A stretch of 35,203 nucleotides of DNA from Deltaproteobacteria bacterium RBG_16_64_85. Lineage in GTDB: Bacteria > Desulfobacterota > Deferrimicrobia > Deferrimicrobiales > Deferrimicrobiaceae. The notes under the pieces are model-generated. The model did not search any database. It was not told where the DNA came from and saw only the letters and a list, made by a program, of their open reading frames with translations. The DNA is taken from positions 1,594-36,796 of the forward strand of contig MGQW01000020.1 of assembly GCA_001798885.1 (NCBI GenBank). The letters are read 5' to 3'. Positions 2,087 through 13,989 of the stretch are shown one piece after another (within the stretch, counting starts at the first letter, position 1; each line of letters opens with the position of its first letter). A program made the translations under genes and the position numbers.

Positions 2087-3427
2087 TCATTTATTGATTC
2101 CGTAGGCGTTTATCTTTTCCCAGAGGGTTTTTCTGCTGATGCCCAGGATTTCGGCGGCTTTCGTCTTGCCGCCTTGCGTCGCTCTCAGCACGCTGATTAT
2201 ATGGTTCCTCTCCGCGTCGGCGGCGACATGCGAAAGCAGAAGGTTCCTCGGCGCCTGCTGTCCCATCATGACCGCCGGAGGCATGTCATCTTTACCGATC
2301 CTCTCCGTCGTCGCCAGAGTTACACACCGCTCGATCGTGTTTTCAAGTTCCCTGACATTGCCGGGATAATCATAATTCAGAAGCATGTCGGCCGCCTCTT
2401 TCGAGAGCTTGACATTCTTTGAAAAACTTTTTCTGTATCTGTCCATGAAAAATTCGATCAGACTTGGAAGATCCTCCTTTCGCTCTCTCAGCGGGGGTAG
2501 GACGATCGGTATGACATTCAGCCTGTAATACAGGTCTTCCCGGAAGCGTCCGGCCTTGACCTCTTCTTCGAGGTTCCTGTTGGTTGCGGCGATCACCCGC
2601 ACGTCGACGGTCAATGTTTCCGTTCCGCCGATCCTTTCGAATTGCCTCTCCTGCATGACCCTGAGGATCTTGGCCTGGGTCGACGGGGGGAGATCCCCGA
2701 CCTCGTCGAGAAAAATGGTGCCGCCGTCGGCAAGCTCGAACCTGCCGGGTCTTCTTTTTATCGCCCCCGTGAACGCTCCCCTTTCATGGCCGAACAGCTC
2801 GCTCTCGATAAGCCCTTCGGGAAGCGTCGAACAGTTGACCTTGATCAGAGGCTTGTTCTTTCTCCCGCTCCGATAGTGTATGGACGTGGCGACGATCTCC
2901 TTGCCTGTCCCGCTTTCGCCAAGGATCAGAACGGTCGAAGGGGAATCGGAGACTTTTTCGATAAGGGAGAAAACCCTTTTCATCCCATCGCTCTCGCCGA
3001 TGATGTTGGGTGCCCGGTAGTAGGTATTGAGGTCTTTCCGGAGCCTGATGTTTTCTTCCTTCAGTCTCTTCAGTTCGAGCGCCCTTTCGATGAGCAGAAG
3101 GAATGCATCGAGGGTAAAAGGCTTGGTGATGTAATCGAAGGCTCCGAGCTTCATCGCCTCCACGGCGTCCTTTATGGTTCCGTATGCGGTCATCACGATA
3201 ACCTGCACGTTCCCCTGTCTCGTGATTTCCCTGACGATGTCGAAACCGTCCATGTCGGGAAGCCTCACGTCGGTGATCACGACATCGCACGATGCGTTGT
3301 TGATGGCATTCAGGCCGGCCGTGCCCGTGGAGAAAGACAGGACCTCGTATCCCGCCGCTCTCAGCGCGTCTTCAAGGGTTACGCGCATGATCTTCTCATC
3401 CTCTATGAGAAGGACGGTTTCTTTCAT
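2087..3427 (-). CDS. NtrC-family sigma-54-dependent response regulator
   Basis: This 446-residue protein has three domains. The receiver (about 1-120) has the acidic pair E9/D10, phosphoacceptor D53 and a conserved Lys in TKPF. The AAA+ domain (about 142-370) has Walker A GESGTGKE (170-177), the sigma-54-contacting GAFTGA loop (217-222) and Walker B DE (241-242). The C-terminus is a Fis-type helix-turn-helix. All motifs needed to remodel sigma-54 holoenzyme are intact, in contrast to the second NtrC-like protein at 11549. Its ATG overlaps the kinase stop by four bases (3427-3424), so it is translationally coupled and is almost certainly the partner of that kinase. The next gene on the strand is the molybdoenzyme, whose upstream gap holds a sigma-54-like site, making that gene the likely target. 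Confidence 0.95.
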   Translation of the reverse strand: MKETVLLIEDEKIMRVTLEDALRAAGYEVLSFSTGTAGLNAINNASCDVVITDVRLPDMDGFDIVREITRQGNVQVIVMTAYGTIKDAVEAMKLGAFDYITKPFTLDAFLLLIERALELKRLKEENIRLRKDLNTYYRAPNIIGESDGMKRVFSLIEKVSDSPSTVLILGESGTGKEIVATSIHYRSGRKNKPLIKVNCSTLPEGLIESELFGHERGAFTGAIKRRPGRFELADGGTIFLDEVGDLPPSTQAKILRVMQERQFERIGGTETLTVDVRVIAATNRNLEEEVKAGRFREDLYYRLNVIPIVLPPLRERKEDLPSLIEFFMDRYRKSFSKNVKLSKEAADMLLNYDYPGNVRELENTIERCVTLATTERIGKDDMPPAVMMGQQAPRNLLLSHVAADAERNHIISVLRATQGGKTKAAEILGISRKTLWEKINAYGINK

Positions 3428-4896
3428 GCCGGCCGACCTGCGGAGAAACGCATGATGAATCGGCTGCCCTTTCCTGTTTCGCTCTCGACGGCGATCTCGC
3501 CATCGTAATTCCGGACGATTTCATAGGTCAACCAGAGGCCGAGGCCGGTCCCTTCCCCGGTGGGCTTGGTCGTGAAGAACGGGTCGAAGACCCTGCCGAT
3601 ATTCTCCGGGGGGATGCCGCACCCGGTGTCGATGACCTCGATGGCGACGGTCGAGTCCTGCCTGGCGGCCCTCACCGTCAGTACCCCTTCCGATTCCATG
3701 GCGTGGACCGCATTGATGAAGAGGTTGAGAAGAAGCTGCTGAAGATCGTGCACATCGAAGAGGAAGCGCAGGTCTTCGGGAACTTCGTTTCTGAAGATGA
3801 GCCCGCCGTCCCGGATCTTGTACTTCAGGAAGGAGTACGCGCTCTCGACGGCATTTCTTATGGTAACTTCAACGGGAGCACCCTCCGTCTTCCGGGACAT
3901 CCAGAGGAGCTTGCTCACCGTCAACTCGATCCGGTCCATTCCCTCCCTGACGAGATCGAGGTATTTCTCCCTCAGTTTGGGATCTTCGCTGTTCTGTTTC
4001 AGGATCTGGAGGCAATTGAAGATGCCGCCCAGGGGATTGTTGATCTCGTGGGCAACCCCCGCGGTCAGAACGCCCATGGAGGCGAGCTTCTCCGACTGGA
4101 CCATTTTTTCATGAGTCTTCTTCAGCTCTTCGTTCGCCTGCCGGATCCTCTCTATCATGCTGTTGAACCGCTCGCCAAGGACCGCGAGCTCGTCGTGCCC
4201 CTTGACATCGACCTTCAGGTCGAGGGTATCCCCGTGCGCCCGCTCCATCGCATTGGCGAGCTGGGTGATGGGGCTGATGAACCTCCTGCTCAGGAGCACG
4301 ATGATCGCGAAGCCCGCAAAGAGAAGTACGATCGTCAAAACCACGATCCTTTTCACGGTGACGAGGATTTCACGCTCGACCTTCTCGAGGGATATCCCGA
4401 ATTTCAAGGTCCCCCACCTTTTCTTTCCGATCGAGAGAGGAACGCCGAAGTCCAGGGCATTGTGTCCGGCACTTGAAAAACGCTGTACGGTGGTCCGTTC
4501 CTCGGCGAGGATCTTTTTCGTCAGCCGATCCGCATATCGTTTCCCGTATTCGGTGATATCGTTGTGGGAAATCACCCTGCCCTCTTCATCCAGAATCGCC
4601 ACATACAGCAGGTCCGCGTCCTGCCGGTTGAAGATCTCCATAAGATAATTATCAAGAAGTCCGCCTTCTTCCACGAGCCCGAGTTTTTCGTAGATCAGGT
4701 CATTGATGATCGGTATCGCAAGCGTCTCGCCGAGGAGACGGCCCTGTTTTTCCACCTCCGCATACAAAATGCTCTTTTCCCTTTCGACGGCCAGATAGCC
4801 GAGAACGCTCATCATCACGATAATCGCGCACGTCGTGACGAGGATGAATTGAAACTGGAGGCCCTTCCTCGAAAAATAATCGATCAGCCGGGTCAT
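3424..4896 (-). CDS. Membrane sensor histidine kinase
   Basis: I chose the ATG at 4896, which overlaps the stop of the binding-protein gene (ATGA, 4896-4893); an in-frame ATG at 4917 would add seven residues. From the short start, a first membrane helix at about 15-35 is followed by a ~145-residue extracytoplasmic sensor region containing a PAS/Cache-like stretch ([17 protein letters not shown]). A second helix lies at about 181-203, then a HAMP domain. HisKA has the phosphoacceptor H283 in [12 protein letters not shown]. The HATPase has an N box ([10 protein letters not shown]), G1 (DTGCGIP) and G2 (GTGLGL). It is therefore a complete NtrB/AtoS-type kinase. Coupled between a periplasmic PhnD-like protein and a sigma-54 regulator, it most likely receives its signal from the binding protein in the periplasm, as AioX does for AioS in arsenite sensing (established analogy, inferred here). 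Confidence 0.93.
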
Positions 4897-6644
4897 CGTC
4901 GTATCTTCGGATGGCATCCCCTGCCGCAGGTCTGCGGGACGGCATTGATCTGCGAACGGATGTTTTCGTAGTCCTTGTCCGATGCCTCGGTAAACCCGTT
5001 CCTGAAGTCTTCATCCAGGCGCCTCAATATCTTTTGTCCGTTGTCATCCGAAGGGTTCAACTCGAGAAGCGCTCTCTTTATGCTTTCCACGACCGAAAGG
5101 GGGATTCCCGGCGCAACAACGAGGGGTCCCATGGGAATGGCCTCGGACTCGGCAATCGTCTCTATGCCGAGCTTCGAATATTTCCTTGCCACCGAGTCTC
5201 GCACGGCCCCCGCGTCGTACTGTCCTTTGAGAACCGCCTTCACCACGGAATCGTGATAATCGAAATTGGCATATCCCTTCAGGTCGTTCAGATGGATCCC
5301 GGAGTTTGCAAGGAGATAGCGGGGGACAAGGTTCCCGGACGTCGATTTGGACGAGGCAAAGGCGATGCTCTTCCCCTTGAGGCCAGCAGGACTTATCTGC
5401 GGATCGCTCTTCTTCTTGACGATCACGCTCCTGAATGTCGCGTTACCGTCAGCGCCCCTGGGTTTCAGGATGCAGATGGCGCCAAATCTCGCGCGGGCCT
5501 CGAGGTAGGTCAACGGTCCCAGAAGAGCGACATCCGTCTCCCCGCTCGCCAGGGCGTTCACCGTCTCCTCATAGTTCTTCTTCAGCACGAGTTCATAGGA
5601 GTAAGGCGTCTTCATCGAAAGGTAATCGAGAAGAGGCTGATACTTCTCGTACAGGATCCTGGGATTGTCCCGGGGGATTACGCCGACGCGCACGGTTTGG
5701 TCTTTCCTGGCTTTCTTCGCAACCGTCGAACTACCGGCGATGGCCCGGTCCATTGTCCGTATTCCGTCATAGTCCCTGTCGGGGACCTCGACAAATCCGT
5801 CGATCATCATGGCATCGAGAATCGCTTTTCCCCTTGGTGTCTTCCGCATGTTCAGAAAAGCGGCTTTCACCTCCCTTTTGAGCACGGGATCGAGATCCCG
5901 GACCGCAACCACCGGAGGGGTCCCGTAGGGAGGAGAACGTTTGATGATCTTTGTCTGCCTGGCGTAGGGAGAGCCGGTCTTCCGCATATACTCGTACACG
6001 ATGCTATCCACTGCCGCTCCGTCCACGATTTTCTTTGCGACCATCTCAACCGATTTATTGTGACTGTAACTGTAGAGAAACCTCCCGAAAAACCTTTCCG
6101 GATCGGTTCCCATCGTCTTCAGCAGATAGGTGGGATAGATCTTGCCGCTGTTGGATTTCGGGTCCATAAAAGCGAACGTCTTTCCCTTCAGCTCCGGAAA
6201 GGCCTTCAGGAGACTGTCGTTATGAACGATGATGTAGGAGTGATATTTTGGATTTCCGTCCACGCTCGGTGCTGCAAGGAGTTCAACACCGAACTTCTCG
6301 CGATCCTTCACATAGGGAGCGGAACAGATAAACGCGATTTTCACCTCGCCCCGCTCGAGGAGTCCGTCCATCTCGTCATAGGTCCTCCGGTGGACCATCT
6401 GGACGGGTTGTCCGATCTGGCTGCCGATGTATTCGATGATGTCCTGGTAATATTTGACCGTGTCGACCGGCGTGATCATCGACGACACGCCGATCCGGAT
6501 CGGTTCCTGCGGTGCGGCGGACTGGAGGGGTGCAACGAGGGCGGAGGCGGGGAGAAGGGCAAGAAAAAAAACAACGCTTCCGAAGAGGACCGGGATGCCC
6601 CGGGCAATGACCCACCGCGACAGCCCATGGGGTAGGAAACCCAT
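4893..6644 (-). CDS. Tandem-domain PhnD-like periplasmic oxyanion-binding protein
   Basis: This 583-residue protein has an N-terminal signal/membrane segment (about 11-40) and two consecutive PhnD-type phosphate/phosphonate-like binding domains, at about 46-300 and 316-565. Each repeat has the same landmarks. The first has IAFICSAPYV (103-112) and SNSGKIYPTYLL (164-175). The second has VALLGPLTYL (372-381) and STSGNLVPRYLL (434-445). Family members are usually a single ~300-residue domain, so this is a duplication or fusion. Cysteines are C107, C391, C573 and C577; C107 sits in the presumed ligand loop of the first domain. The extreme C-terminus has CGRGCH. No permease or ATPase accompanies it; the next genes are a kinase and a regulator, so it is probably a ligand sensor, like AioX/ArrX, rather than a transporter component. 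No Shine-Dalgarno is visible at this start. Confidence 0.9.
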   Translation of the reverse strand: MGFLPHGLSRWVIARGIPVLFGSVVFFLALLPASALVAPLQSAAPQEPIRIGVSSMITPVDTVKYYQDIIEYIGSQIGQPVQMVHRRTYDEMDGLLERGEVKIAFICSAPYVKDREKFGVELLAAPSVDGNPKYHSYIIVHNDSLLKAFPELKGKTFAFMDPKSNSGKIYPTYLLKTMGTDPERFFGRFLYSYSHNKSVEMVAKKIVDGAAVDSIVYEYMRKTGSPYARQTKIIKRSPPYGTPPVVAVRDLDPVLKREVKAAFLNMRKTPRGKAILDAMMIDGFVEVPDRDYDGIRTMDRAIAGSSTVAKKARKDQTVRVGVIPRDNPRILYEKYQPLLDYLSMKTPYSYELVLKKNYEETVNALASGETDVALLGPLTYLEARARFGAICILKPRGADGNATFRSVIVKKKSDPQISPAGLKGKSIAFASSKSTSGNLVPRYLLANSGIHLNDLKGYANFDYHDSVVKAVLKGQYDAGAVRDSVARKYSKLGIETIAESEAIPMGPLVVAPGIPLSVVESIKRALLELNPSDDNGQKILRRLDEDFRNGFTEASDKDYENIRSQINAVPQTCGRGCHPKIRR

Positions 6645-7953: not shown

Positions 7954-10047
<2,094 letters not shown>

Positions 10048-10329
10048 ATGAAGGAGACTTCGGAGGCCCGCGTGGTCGTCTCGGGAAGGGTCCAGGGGGT
10101 CTTCTTCCGCGCGTCGACGCGGGACGTGGCCGTTCGTTACGGGGTCCGCGGGTTCGTCCGGAATCTCCCCGACGGCCGGGTGGAAGCGGTGCTGCAAGGG
10201 GACCGGGGCGCCGTGGAGAAGGTCGTCGCCTTCATGCGCGAAGGGCCGCCGGGGGCATACGTGGAGGAGACCGATATCGAATGGCGGCCCCCGTCGGAGG
10301 TCTGGAATGGGTTCCTCGTCCGCCGCTGA
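10048..10329 (+). CDS. acyP: Acylphosphatase
   Basis: This 93-residue enzyme hydrolyses carboxyl-phosphate bonds such as those of acyl phosphates. The family signatures are intact: GRVQGVFFR with the phosphate-binding R21, and GFVRNLPDG with the catalytic N39. The ATG follows the ligA stop directly (TAGATG), and the end overlaps the next gene by 23 bases, so it sits inside a tightly packed operon. Proximity to pgk, whose substrate is an acyl phosphate, is suggestive but may be coincidental. Confidence 0.95.
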   Translation: MKETSEARVVVSGRVQGVFFRASTRDVAVRYGVRGFVRNLPDGRVEAVLQGDRGAVEKVVAFMREGPPGAYVEETDIEWRPPSEVWNGFLVRR

Positions 10330-11311
10330 ACCCAGAGTCGCGGACTATTGGCATCCCGAGGGGGAAGCCGTCCGTTGCGAGCTGTGCCCCCACGGGTGCC
10401 TGATCGCCGACGGCAAGCGGGGGATCTGCCAAATACGGGAAAACCGGGAGGGAACGCTATTCGCCCTCACTTACGGCAGGGTGTCGGCGGTTCAACTGGA
10501 TCCGATCGAGAAGAAGCCCCTCTTCCACTTCCACCCGGGGACGGAGATCCTTTCCGTGGGGTCCATCGGCTGCAACTTCCGCTGCGGGTTCTGCCAGAAC
10601 TGGCACCTCGTCCTGGGGCAGGCATCGCTTTCGCCGGCCGGGATCCCGGAGCTCGTCCGCGCCGCCAGGGAATCGGGGTCCGTCGGGATCGCCTATACTT
10701 ACAACGAACCGCTGATCTGGTTCGAATTCGTGATGGACTGCGCCCGGGAATTCCGTAAGGCCGGCATGGCCAACGTGCTGGTGACGAACGGCCACGTTTC
10801 CCCGGAGCCGCTGGGGGAGCTTCTCCCGCTGGTGGACGCGATGAACATCGATCTCAAGTCGATGGACCCCGATTTTTACCGGAAGGTATGTGCGGGAAAC
10901 CTGGCGCCCGTTCTCGACACGATCCGGACGGCCTCGCGAAGCGTCCACGTCGAGATCACGGCCCTGCTGGTCACGGGGGAGAACGATTCGGACGACGCGA
11001 TCCGGAAGGTGGTCGACTTCGTTGCCGGCACGGACCCGGAGATCCCGCTTCACTTTTCCCGCTATTTCCCCCAGCACCGGTTCACCGCGCCGCCGACACC
11101 CCCCTCCCGGCTCGAGACGGCACACCGGATCGGCCGGGAGAAGCTTTCCTACGTTTACGTGGGAAATTACCACCTGGCCGGAAGCGAGGATACGCGGTGC
11201 CCCCGTTGCGGCGCGACCGTCGTCCGCCGTCTGGGCTACCGGACCTCCCCGATCGGCCTCGTGGGAAACCGGTGCGCCTCTTGCACAGCGAAGCTTCGTT
11301 TCGTGGTATAA
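10307..11311 (+). CDS. amrS: AmmeMemoRadiSam-type radical SAM enzyme
   Basis: This 334-residue protein has the radical SAM motif C-x3-C-x2-C (CNFRCGFC) that binds a [4Fe-4S] cluster and S-adenosylmethionine. An upstream Cys pair (CELCPHGC) and the GICQIREN segment are typical of the AmrS/PflA-like family, followed by AYTYNEPLIWFEF and NIDLKSMD. The C-terminus has a zinc-ribbon-like pair of CxxC motifs (CPRC and CASC). The usual partners AmrA and AmrB (Memo) are not in this window, so the family name is by similarity and the substrate is unknown. The start overlaps acyP by 23 bases. Confidence 0.88.
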   Translation: MGSSSAAEPRVADYWHPEGEAVRCELCPHGCLIADGKRGICQIRENREGTLFALTYGRVSAVQLDPIEKKPLFHFHPGTEILSVGSIGCNFRCGFCQNWHLVLGQASLSPAGIPELVRAARESGSVGIAYTYNEPLIWFEFVMDCAREFRKAGMANVLVTNGHVSPEPLGELLPLVDAMNIDLKSMDPDFYRKVCAGNLAPVLDTIRTASRSVHVEITALLVTGENDSDDAIRKVVDFVAGTDPEIPLHFSRYFPQHRFTAPPTPPSRLETAHRIGREKLSYVYVGNYHLAGSEDTRCPRCGATVVRRLGYRTSPIGLVGNRCASCTAKLRFVV

Positions 11312-11545
11312 ATGACCCCAATGAGAAGCGCGTTTCTCGCCCTTCTGTTGTGCATCGCTCTATGGGCCCCCCCGATGCTCCAGGGGGCGCCGGACAACAC
11401 CCACCGCGGAGCGGCTACCTATGAGGAGCGCTCCAAAGCCGAAAAGATGAGCCGTTCCCGGTACAGGGACCTGGAGGTGGCCTCCCTCGTTCTCATCCTC
11501 GTGGTAGGGGGAGCAGCCATTCTGTGGGCAGTGCGAAAAAAATAA
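11312..11545 (+). CDS. Small membrane protein of unknown function
   Basis: The protein has 77 residues. An N-terminal hydrophobic stretch (about 6-25, with a plausible signal cleavage near LQGA) is followed by a charged, Arg/Lys/Glu-rich middle and a second hydrophobic helix (about 57-73) ending in RKK. It begins immediately after the amrS stop and ends three bases before the regulator gene at 11549. An internal ATG at 11321 is an alternative start. I recognise no family. Conserved packing with the degenerate regulator suggests a membrane-linked partner, which is inference. Confidence 0.7.
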   Translation: MTPMRSAFLALLLCIALWAPPMLQGAPDNTHRGAATYEERSKAEKMSRSRYRDLEVASLVLILVVGGAAILWAVRKK

Positions 11546-11548
11546 GTC

Positions 11549-12940
11549 ATGAAAGCGACTCCGCCCAAAAGGATCCTCGTCATCGACGACGAACCGCAGA
11601 TCCTGAACTTCCTCAAGGAACTCTTCCAACCCGGCGGATGGGACGTGCACCAGGCGTCCTCCGGCACGGAGGGGATCGAGAAGATCGAGCGGGAGCGGTA
11701 CGACGTCATCCTCACCGATCTCAGGATGCCGGACGCCGACGGGATCGAGGTCCTCCGGACCGCGAAGAAGATCCAGTCCGACGCCGAAGTCGTTCTGATG
11801 ACGGCCTACGGCACCGTCGACAGCGCGATCGAGGCGATGCGAGCGGGCGCGTTCCACTTCCTCATGAAACCGTTCCGGGCGGAGGAGGTGCGCCACCTGG
11901 TCGACAAGGCATACGACCGGCGCCAGCTGAAGCGCGAGAACCTCTTCCTCAAAGCCGAAGCGCGCGGCCAGCACCAGATCGGGGCCGTCGTCGGCACCAG
12001 CCCGACCGTCCAGGAGGCCGTTTCCCGCGTCCAGCGGCTGGCGGACACGGACACACCCGTCCTGATCGAGGGGGAGCACGGGACGGGACGGGGATTTCTC
12101 GCGAGAATCATCCACTACCAGAGCTCGCGTTTCGACGGCCTCTTCGTGCCCGTGGCCTGCGCCGGCATCCCGGAGGAGCTGCTGGAGAGCGAATTGTTCG
12201 GATATGCGCCGGGAGCCTACCAGCGGGCCATGCTGCCCCGCGCCGGAAAGGCCGAACTCGCCAGCCGGGGAACCCTCTACCTCGCCGATATCGACAGGGT
12301 GGGGATGCGGATCCAGGAGAAAATCCTCCGGCTCCTGACGACGAAAACCATATCCCCCGTGGGTGGCAGCCGGGAGATCGAGAGCGACGTGCGCCTGGTG
12401 GCCTCCTCCACCTCCTGCGTTGGCGATCTGTCGGAGAGCGGGAAATTCCTTCGAACCCTTCGGGACGCCCTGCATCCGGGGCTCATCCGCCTCCCCCCTC
12501 TTCGGGAACGTACCGAGGACATCCCTTTGCTCCTCCATCATTACCTCTTCGAATCGAACCGGGAGAGGAAGAAGCCGCTCCGGGGCTTCAGCGAGGCCGC
12601 ACTGTCGGCCCTGACGGCGCATTCCTGGCCGGGAAACGTCGAGGAGCTCATCGAGCTGGTGAACCTCATCTCCTCCCGGAAGAGGCAGGGAAGCGTGGTG
12701 GACGCAGCGGACCTCCCCACGGAAATCCTGTACGGGCGCACGCGCAAGCCCCCGATGGACGACTCCCCTCCCGCGAAGCCTCCCCTGGACATCCGCGAAG
12801 CCATAAAAGACCTCGACCGACAGATGCTCAAGCAGGCTCTCGCCTTGTCCGAGGGGGACAAGGAGAAAGCCGCCGCACTCCTCAATATCGAGTTGGCCGC
12901 CCTGGAGAAACTGATGAAGAGCAGCGGCATCGAGGAGTAA
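11549..12940 (+). CDS. Response regulator with degenerate NtrC-type AAA+ domain
   Basis: This 463-residue protein has receiver, AAA+-like and C-terminal regions laid out as in sigma-54 activators. The receiver looks functional (D13/D14, phosphoacceptor D57, Lys in MKPF). The AAA+ region keeps the fold but not the chemistry. Walker A is GEHGTGRG (175-182), with R181 in place of Lys. The GAFTGA loop has become GAYQRA (222-227). Walker B reads LYLADID, where DE is expected. The sensor II motif is WPGNVEE, with Glu in place of Arg. The C-terminal helix-turn-helix is weakly recognisable (KEKAAALLNIELAALEKLM). It probably cannot hydrolyse ATP or open sigma-54 complexes, so it may act as a phospho-switched binding protein or a dominant partner. 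It ends 17 bases before the MDR gene. Confidence 0.9.
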   Translation: MKATPPKRILVIDDEPQILNFLKELFQPGGWDVHQASSGTEGIEKIERERYDVILTDLRMPDADGIEVLRTAKKIQSDAEVVLMTAYGTVDSAIEAMRAGAFHFLMKPFRAEEVRHLVDKAYDRRQLKRENLFLKAEARGQHQIGAVVGTSPTVQEAVSRVQRLADTDTPVLIEGEHGTGRGFLARIIHYQSSRFDGLFVPVACAGIPEELLESELFGYAPGAYQRAMLPRAGKAELASRGTLYLADIDRVGMRIQEKILRLLTTKTISPVGGSREIESDVRLVASSTSCVGDLSESGKFLRTLRDALHPGLIRLPPLRERTEDIPLLLHHYLFESNRERKKPLRGFSEAALSALTAHSWPGNVEELIELVNLISSRKRQGSVVDAADLPTEILYGRTRKPPMDDSPPAKPPLDIREAIKDLDRQMLKQALALSEGDKEKAAALLNIELAALEKLMKSSGIEE

Positions 12941-12957
12941 ACCGGAGGGGGACACTC

Positions 12958-13989
12958 TTGAAAGCCGCCTTTTTCCGCGAGCACGGCGGTCCCGACAAGA
13001 TCCAGTACGGAGATCTCCCCGATCCGGCACCCGGCCCGGGGCAGGTGCGGGTCCGCATTCGCGCCGGGGCGTTGAACCACCTCGACCTCTTCGTCCTAAG
13101 GGGGATCCCCGGCATCCCCGTGACTCTCCCCCACGTGATGGGGTCCGACGGCGCAGGCGTCGTCGAGGCGGTAGGGCCCGGGGTCGCCCGCGTGAGGCCC
13201 GGCGACGAGGTGGTGCTGAATCCCGGGATCCACTGCGGGACCTGCGAGTTCTGCCTCAAGGGCGAGCACTCGCTGTGCGTCACTTTCCACCTCCTCGGGG
13301 AGCACATCGCGGGGACGTTCGCTTCGCTCGTCGTCGCCCCGGAGATCAATGCCTATCCGAAACCCGCGGGACTCACGTGGGAGGAGGCGGCGGCGTTCCC
13401 CCTTACCTTCCTCACGGCGTGGCGGATGCTCGTCACGAAGGCCCGTGCGAAGCCCGGCGAGTCCATCCTCGTCGTCGGCATCGGCGGAGGCGTAGCGGTC
13501 GCCGCGCTGCAGATCGCGAAAATGCTGGGCCTGACCGTATGGGTCACGTCGGGCAGTGCGGACAAGCTTTCCCGGGCGAAGACGCTGGGGGCGGACTTCG
13601 GCATCGACCCTGCCGAAGCTGACTTCTCTCGCGAGATCCGGAAGTTCACGGAGAAGCGCGGCGTGGACATCGTCCTCGACTCGGTAGGGAGGGCGACCTG
13701 GAAGCAATCCATCGCCTCCCTGGCCAAGGGGGGGCGGCTGCTCACCTGCGGCGCGACCACCGGCCCCAACCCCGAGGAGGATATCGCCAGGATCTTCTGG
13801 AACCAGTTGAGCGTGCACGGTTCGACCATGGGAACGCACGGCGAGTTCGCCGACATGCTCCGAATGTTCCACGGAGGACGCCTGCACCCCGTGATCGATG
13901 CCGTGTTTCCCCTGTCGCAGGCGAGGGAAGCCGCGCGACGGCTGGAGGAGAAGCGGCAGTTCGGAAAGATCGTGCTCCGGGTCGATTGA
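12958..13989 (+). CDS. MDR-family zinc-binding alcohol dehydrogenase/quinone oxidoreductase
   Basis: This 343-residue protein begins at TTG 12958, preceded by a strong AGGGGG site; the N-terminus MKAAFFREHGGPDKIQY is typical of the family. It has the GroES-like domain, a structural-zinc Cys set (CGTCEFCLKGEHSLC) and a Rossmann domain with the glycine-rich loop VVGIGGGVAVAALQIA. The usual catalytic-zinc Cys near residue 40 is replaced (ALNHLD), so it may work as a quinone oxidoreductase or enoyl reductase rather than a zinc alcohol dehydrogenase. The substrate cannot be told. A strong promoter for the next gene overlaps its stop codon. Confidence 0.9.
   Translation: MKAAFFREHGGPDKIQYGDLPDPAPGPGQVRVRIRAGALNHLDLFVLRGIPGIPVTLPHVMGSDGAGVVEAVGPGVARVRPGDEVVLNPGIHCGTCEFCLKGEHSLCVTFHLLGEHIAGTFASLVVAPEINAYPKPAGLTWEEAAAFPLTFLTAWRMLVTKARAKPGESILVVGIGGGVAVAALQIAKMLGLTVWVTSGSADKLSRAKTLGADFGIDPAEADFSREIRKFTEKRGVDIVLDSVGRATWKQSIASLAKGGRLLTCGATTGPNPEEDIARIFWNQLSVHGSTMGTHGEFADMLRMFHGGRLHPVIDAVFPLSQAREAARRLEEKRQFGKIVLRVD

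Follow-up and report, generated by a model that had tools for sequence, protein, structure and literature searches.

The window, a 35,203-nt stretch of DNA from Deltaproteobacteria bacterium RBG_16_64_85, carries a gene for an NtrC-type response regulator whose active-site and contact motifs are degenerate, and which we refer to as pseudo-NtrC. The gene, its neighbours and its internal features are listed below in window coordinates.

10307-11311, + strand: amrS-like radical SAM gene, the upstream neighbour and synteny anchor (synteny).
11312-11545, + strand: small membrane protein, 77 aa, conserved in the family and matching the PilZ-type anchor of the sister family.
11549-12940, + strand: pseudo-NtrC response regulator, 463 aa (open reading frame, Pfam, ortholog alignment).
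11570-11902, + strand: receiver domain, aa 8-118 (Pfam PF00072, 98 bits).
11717-11719, + strand: phospho-acceptor D57, within YDVILTDLRMP.
11900-11986, + strand: linker helix from receiver to core, aa 118-146, with the conserved KAY.QRQLKRENLFLK (alignment, AlphaFold model).
12071-12094, + strand: degenerate Walker A, GEHGTGRG, with R181 (12089-12091) replacing Lys; Arg in 20/20 orthologs, Lys in intact paralogs.
12212-12229, + strand: degenerate sigma-54 contact loop (L1), aa 222-227, GAYQRA for GAFTGA (alignment).
12275-12289, + strand: degenerate Walker B, LYLAD, with A246 replacing Asp; Ala or Ser in 20/20 orthologs.
12449-12469, + strand: former arginine-finger segment; positions 301 and 307 are now Leu and Ala, with Arg gone at both.
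12500-12748, + strand: AAA+ lid, aa 318-400, with the newly fixed basic motif PLLLHH...NR.RKKPL.GF and RKKQGT.VDA.D.P, conserved above the level of the intact paralog.
12641-12643, + strand: sensor II position 365, Glu in the window protein only (ortholog alignment).
12791-12937, + strand: Fis-type C-terminal domain, aa 415-463, predicted helical, with its DNA-binding charge lost (alignment, AlphaFold model, charge count).
12964-13989, + strand: zinc-type alcohol dehydrogenase/quinone reductase, the downstream neighbour, start approximate (synteny).

No histidine kinase gene adjoins pseudo-NtrC, and a simple scan for a -24/-12 pattern found no match to a sigma-54 promoter upstream of it. About 7 kb off, at 2087-3427 and 3424-4917 (- strand), the window holds an ordinary pair: the gene of an intact NtrC-type activator and, overlapping it, that of a histidine kinase with sCache and HAMP domains. 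RpoN was present in all eight genomes tested.

The 463 codons run without interruption, as an earlier note on this DNA had reported, and encode in order a receiver, linker, AAA+ core, lid and Fis-type C-terminus. Pfam recognized the receiver, the sigma-54 activator core (PF00158, 147 bits), an AAA lid and a borderline HTH_8 (22.5 bits against a cutoff of 22); PF00158, together with Foldseek matches to FleQ and NtrC1, identifies an AAA+ sigma-54 interaction domain by homology. The receiver is that of a response regulator, with the acidic pair D13/D14, the phospho-acceptor D57, T85 and K107 all retained. The earlier note had pointed to D57, and the alignment shows it kept in 19 of the 19 orthologs that have the receiver region.

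Judged by sequence, the residues of ATP hydrolysis (Walker A Lys, Walker B Asp and two arginine fingers) are gone. The substitutions described previously in Walker A, in GAFTGA and in Walker B (AD for DE, at A246 and D247 of GTLYLADID) are all present, and the alignment extends them beyond this one protein. The Thr of GAFTGA is absent from all 20 aligned orthologs, which thus lack the contact loop of a sigma-54 activator. The reported change of the sensor II Arg to Glu exists in the window (E365 of WPGNVEEL) but fails as a trait of the clade: the other 19 orthologs have Arg (17), Lys (1) or Gln (1), so the change is local to the window's species. The statement that all motifs are degraded listed real losses in the window protein but was incomplete, as both arginine fingers (301 and 307) are missing in 20/20 aligned orthologs, and the Asn of the glutamate switch (203), that of sensor I (288) and the HTH surface that touches DNA have gone too. 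In PspF the key residues are Walker A, the switch Asn64, Walker B Asp107/Glu108 and the R-fingers Arg162/Arg168 (PMC12054792, PMC7175178). Their counterparts, matched by ourselves from the alignment, are positions 181, 203, 246, 301 and 307, every one of which is altered in pseudo-NtrC.

We searched 59 related genomes for orthologs and obtained a clade of the window protein and 19 relatives, 50-73% identical, whose 20 aligned frames contained no internal stops. With fragments at contig ends counted, pseudo-NtrC occurs in 21 of 24 genomes of its family, a group of uncultured deltaproteobacteria, at the same syntenic position, in the conserved order pgk-ligA-acyP-amrS-small ORF-pseudo-NtrC. In one genome (G001) it is split across two contig ends (L160, L027), and in another (G014) the locus is truncated by a contig end. 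It was not found behind amrS in G003, G010 and G018; the contigs of G003 and G010 stop ~1.1 and ~0.7 kb further on. In G018, a 1.7-Mb genome, pseudo-NtrC and the alcohol dehydrogenase gene are both missing between amrS and rsmI, and the small membrane gene is kept there (L159, ~8982-9341, 34% identical). The alcohol dehydrogenase gene is also absent from this position in genus g2.

A wider survey of 297 genomes drawn from the phylum separated the clade by score, with 680-830 bits inside it and at most 503 outside. The highest-scoring protein beyond the clade, from the sister family, was rejected as a member because its motifs are intact. The earlier note had named orthologs with intact motifs as a sign of a recent decaying copy; inside the clade there were none, and intact copies were confined to the sister family and the paralog. 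Because the core losses are common to all 20 aligned orthologs, chance and sequencing error are excluded. A reverse frame is also open (a 556-aa ORF, 11360-13030), but the Pfam domains, synteny and conservation all lie on the + strand, and annotation or frame error, previously judged hard to accept, was rejected. The comparison of orthologs proposed in that note thus bore out conservation for Walker A, Walker B and the GAFTGA Thr, but not for the sensor II Glu. The shared motif substitutions have been fixed since the family ancestor.

Pairwise dN/dS over the whole gene was 0.05-0.35 among the pairs computed (NG86, and YN00 values for part of the pairs), in agreement with the purifying selection for which a check had been suggested. 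Recent decay is ruled out by the orthologs and by dN/dS, and the claim that the gene is maintained stands on its occurrence across the family, its conserved synteny and its lack of internal stops. A conserved fold, lost catalytic residues and purifying selection are the marks of a pseudo-enzyme, and pseudo-NtrC is almost certainly a maintained pseudo-ATPase of the NtrC family.

Constraint has shifted among its domains. In the 16 genomes carrying both the intact paralog and pseudo-NtrC, mean pairwise identity for the paralog and pseudo-NtrC, respectively, was 0.70 and 0.65 in the receiver, 0.57 and 0.62 in the linker, 0.79 and 0.53 in the AAA+ core, 0.59 and 0.71 in the lid, and 0.69 and 0.55 in the HTH. 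Column entropy was concordant (Wilcoxon p 4e-17 for the core and 0.006 for the lid, receiver unchanged), with p-values that serve as a guide since alignment columns are not fully independent. Lid positions such as 330 (H), 340-344 (RKKPL), 378-380 and 386 are near-invariant and mostly variable in the paralog; K341/K342 stand in place of Gly/Arg, and the net charge of the lid is +4.9, against +0.5 in the paralog. A structural role could be an alternative cause of this gain in conservation.

The AlphaFold model of pseudo-NtrC (pLDDT 81.7, pTM 0.52, domain packing uncertain) retains the receiver, a long linker helix, the AAA+ fold and a Fis-like helical end. Its Foldseek matches were NtrC1, NtrX, LuxO and FleQ, the closest being NtrC1, NtrX and FleQ. 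Aquifex NtrC1 (PDB 1ny5, 4l4u) and Brucella NtrX (5m7n) have the same order of receiver, linker, AAA+ core and lid, with identities over the model of ~35% and ~28%. NtrC1 has an ATPase site and a sigma-54 loop, whereas pseudo-NtrC is without catalytic residues, sigma-54 loop and DNA-binding face. FleQ has a receiver that cannot be phosphorylated and a functional ATPase (PMC10723142); pseudo-NtrC appears to be the reverse, with the phospho-acceptor kept and the ATPase residues lost.

In a phylogenetic tree the pseudo-NtrC clade was a single group (support 100/100), and formed with the family's intact paralog and the sister-family copies a larger group (100/99) separate from the other activators included. 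These nearest relatives, the clade of the paralog (L002 in the window genome) and the sister-family copies (L032, L033), are ~38-44% identical to pseudo-NtrC and differ from it in that all motifs are intact and fliA is adjacent; the HTH of the L002 clade, unlike that of pseudo-NtrC, is positively charged. In the sister family (G024, G025) the intact copy occupies the corresponding ligA-acyP-amrS locus, close to fliA and a MinD-like gene, and the family's own intact paralog is located elsewhere in the genome, adjoining fliA. From this arrangement we infer that a duplicate of the FliA-linked activator degenerated at the window locus. The tree and gene order indicate that this duplication, in the ancestry of the bacterial class, gave rise to pseudo-NtrC a single time, and that the protein then became fixed throughout one family; the AU test did not separate duplication before the split of the two families from duplication after it (p 0.15 and 0.20).

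In the window genome the gene adjoining the intact paralog encodes a FliA/WhiG sigma factor (L102, 10811-11572, + strand, contig C13). Flagellin had no match in this genome, which makes a flagellar role for the FliA link improbable there. The Walker Lys is present in the remaining full-length NtrC-type proteins retrieved from the window genome. Two further activators in it, L004 and L010, have altered loops (GAFTEA and GSFTDA) and intact Walker motifs.

The 77-aa ORF between amrS and pseudo-NtrC is missing from the earlier note. Its TAA lies 3 bp ahead of the pseudo-NtrC start, and its product consists of a signal-like N-terminus, a short loop, RSRYRDLEVASL, one hydrophobic segment and an RKK tail. 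It is found 3' of amrS, as a single copy, in 20 of the 24 family genomes. Pseudo-NtrC occurs without it in G019 and G022, and the reverse holds in G018; the association of the two genes across the 24 genomes is no more than suggestive (Fisher p 0.06).

In the sister family a membrane-anchored protein is encoded beside the intact NtrC-type gene (L122, 8758-9726, + strand; L123, 11076-12161, - strand). RSRYRDLEVASL, the hydrophobic segment and the RRK tail resemble the N-terminal anchor of this PilZ-type protein, which has the same location. The profile match to L122 had an i-Evalue of 2.6e-7; L123 has the same RYRVLEFFSL pattern with a score below threshold, and is the only one of the two in which Pfam called PilZ. 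These likenesses suggest that the small membrane protein is a shortened relic of a PilZ-type protein. With its NtrC-type activator, fliA, MinD-like ATPase and PilZ-type protein, the sister-family cluster resembles the FleQ-FleN-c-di-GMP neighbourhood and looks like a c-di-GMP-linked, FleQ/FleN-like system.

The loss of the motor and of the grips on polymerase and DNA in a gene kept in place under selection makes a phosphorylation-controlled protein-binding switch the probable outcome, and the constraint on receiver, linker and lid makes a phospho-switch acting through the lid the most economical reading. That pseudo-NtrC is such a switch, and not itself a transcription activator, is a claim we hold to be evenly poised. 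Some histidine kinase would still phosphorylate D57; phosphorylation would alter the receiver/linker dimer, so that the lid is exposed or masked, and the conserved basic surface of the lid would bind a partner protein with no need of ATP. In FleQ the lid subdomain (SD2) touches the receiver in trans (PMC10723142), which is a precedent for receiver-to-lid signalling. Because the pseudo-NtrC gene lies immediately behind the small membrane gene, the protein encoded there may be the partner, or may tether the switch to the membrane. Candidate partners would be, in order, this adjacent protein and the intact paralog; that the small protein is the functional partner has a real chance of being true, although we lean toward doubt. 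More tentative still is the larger picture, in which the whole module was duplicated, the activator became a non-transcriptional phospho-switch, its PilZ partner was reduced to a membrane anchor alone, and both now make up a membrane-linked signalling pair that works through the newly fixed basic surface of the lid. Among the roles put forward in the earlier note, an ATP-independent phospho-switch or a scaffold would fit best, and an anti-activator is possible.

Such an anti-activator would enter mixed oligomers with the intact paralog or another activator and poison the hexamer in a phosphorylation-dependent way. The fold, receiver and linker that this calls for are retained, pseudo-NtrC was duplicated from exactly the paralog's lineage, and the paralog was detected in 20 of 24 family genomes. 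However, constraint is most relaxed in the AAA+ core, where the majority of ring contacts are made. Four genomes with pseudo-NtrC (G001, G005, G015, G019) gave no match to the paralog at the cutoff, and three (G003, G010, G018) have the paralog but no pseudo-NtrC. We consider this role unlikely, if still worth keeping in mind.

A lost sigma-54 loop need not end transcriptional function. The NtrC proteins of Rhodobacter capsulatus and Caulobacter and VpsR, all NtrC-family proteins with no GAFTGA, act on DNA at sigma-70 promoters, the two NtrC proteins in a phosphorylation-dependent manner (PMC10274813). Pseudo-NtrC shares the missing contact loop with them, its Fis-like fold is still predicted and its lid has turned basic, so it might serve as a transcription factor that acts with sigma-70 polymerase and needs no ATP. 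Unlike them, it has also lost Walker A and Walker B, and the positive charge of the HTH or the HTH itself is gone: net HTH charge is -3.3, against +5.8 in the intact paralog, the recognition helix is acidic, and four orthologs stop after the lid, with the rest of the protein retained and no HTH. The C-terminus is therefore predicted not to bind DNA, the property kept by sigma-70 NtrC/VpsR-type proteins, and this reading is improbable.

Slightly less probable again is a non-canonical nucleotide sensor, in which Arg181 and the retained GxxGxG loop would hold a nucleotide (ATP, ADP or c-di-GMP) that is not hydrolysed, and the lid would signal its presence. G175, G178, G180, R181 and R186 are invariant among orthologs, most of which retain the sensor II Arg; a PilZ-type protein is encoded at the sister-family locus, and in the relatives FleQ and VfmH the AAA+ domain is a c-di-GMP-binding site (PMC10714721). 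Against this, the Asp that binds Mg is lost, as are the two arginines acting in trans, and the window protein itself is without the sensor II Arg. A functionless duplicate in slow decay, retained by chance, is scarcely credible, for although the AAA+ core evolves faster than in the paralog and the gene is lost from three family genomes, the frame is open in 20/20 aligned orthologs, dN/dS is well below 1, and the phospho-site and lid are near-invariant while identity in the family falls to 50%.

Taken on its conservation and its lost residues, pseudo-NtrC is a real, conserved pseudo-enzyme. We found no paper on a pseudo-ATPase of the NtrC family in the literature searched, which excludes most subscription journals. 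Automatic annotation would give proteins of this kind the label of a sigma-54 regulator. Two intact proteins are available for comparison, the paralog that most of these genomes also carry and the sister-family copy at the corresponding locus, so that the change can be put to the test. The motif-poor NtrC relatives cited above lost the sigma-54 loop and kept their action on DNA; if the phospho-regulated protein-binding switch is correct, a family-wide clade without motor, polymerase or DNA contacts, but with more constraint on its lid, would show that this large activator family can yield non-transcriptional signalling proteins.
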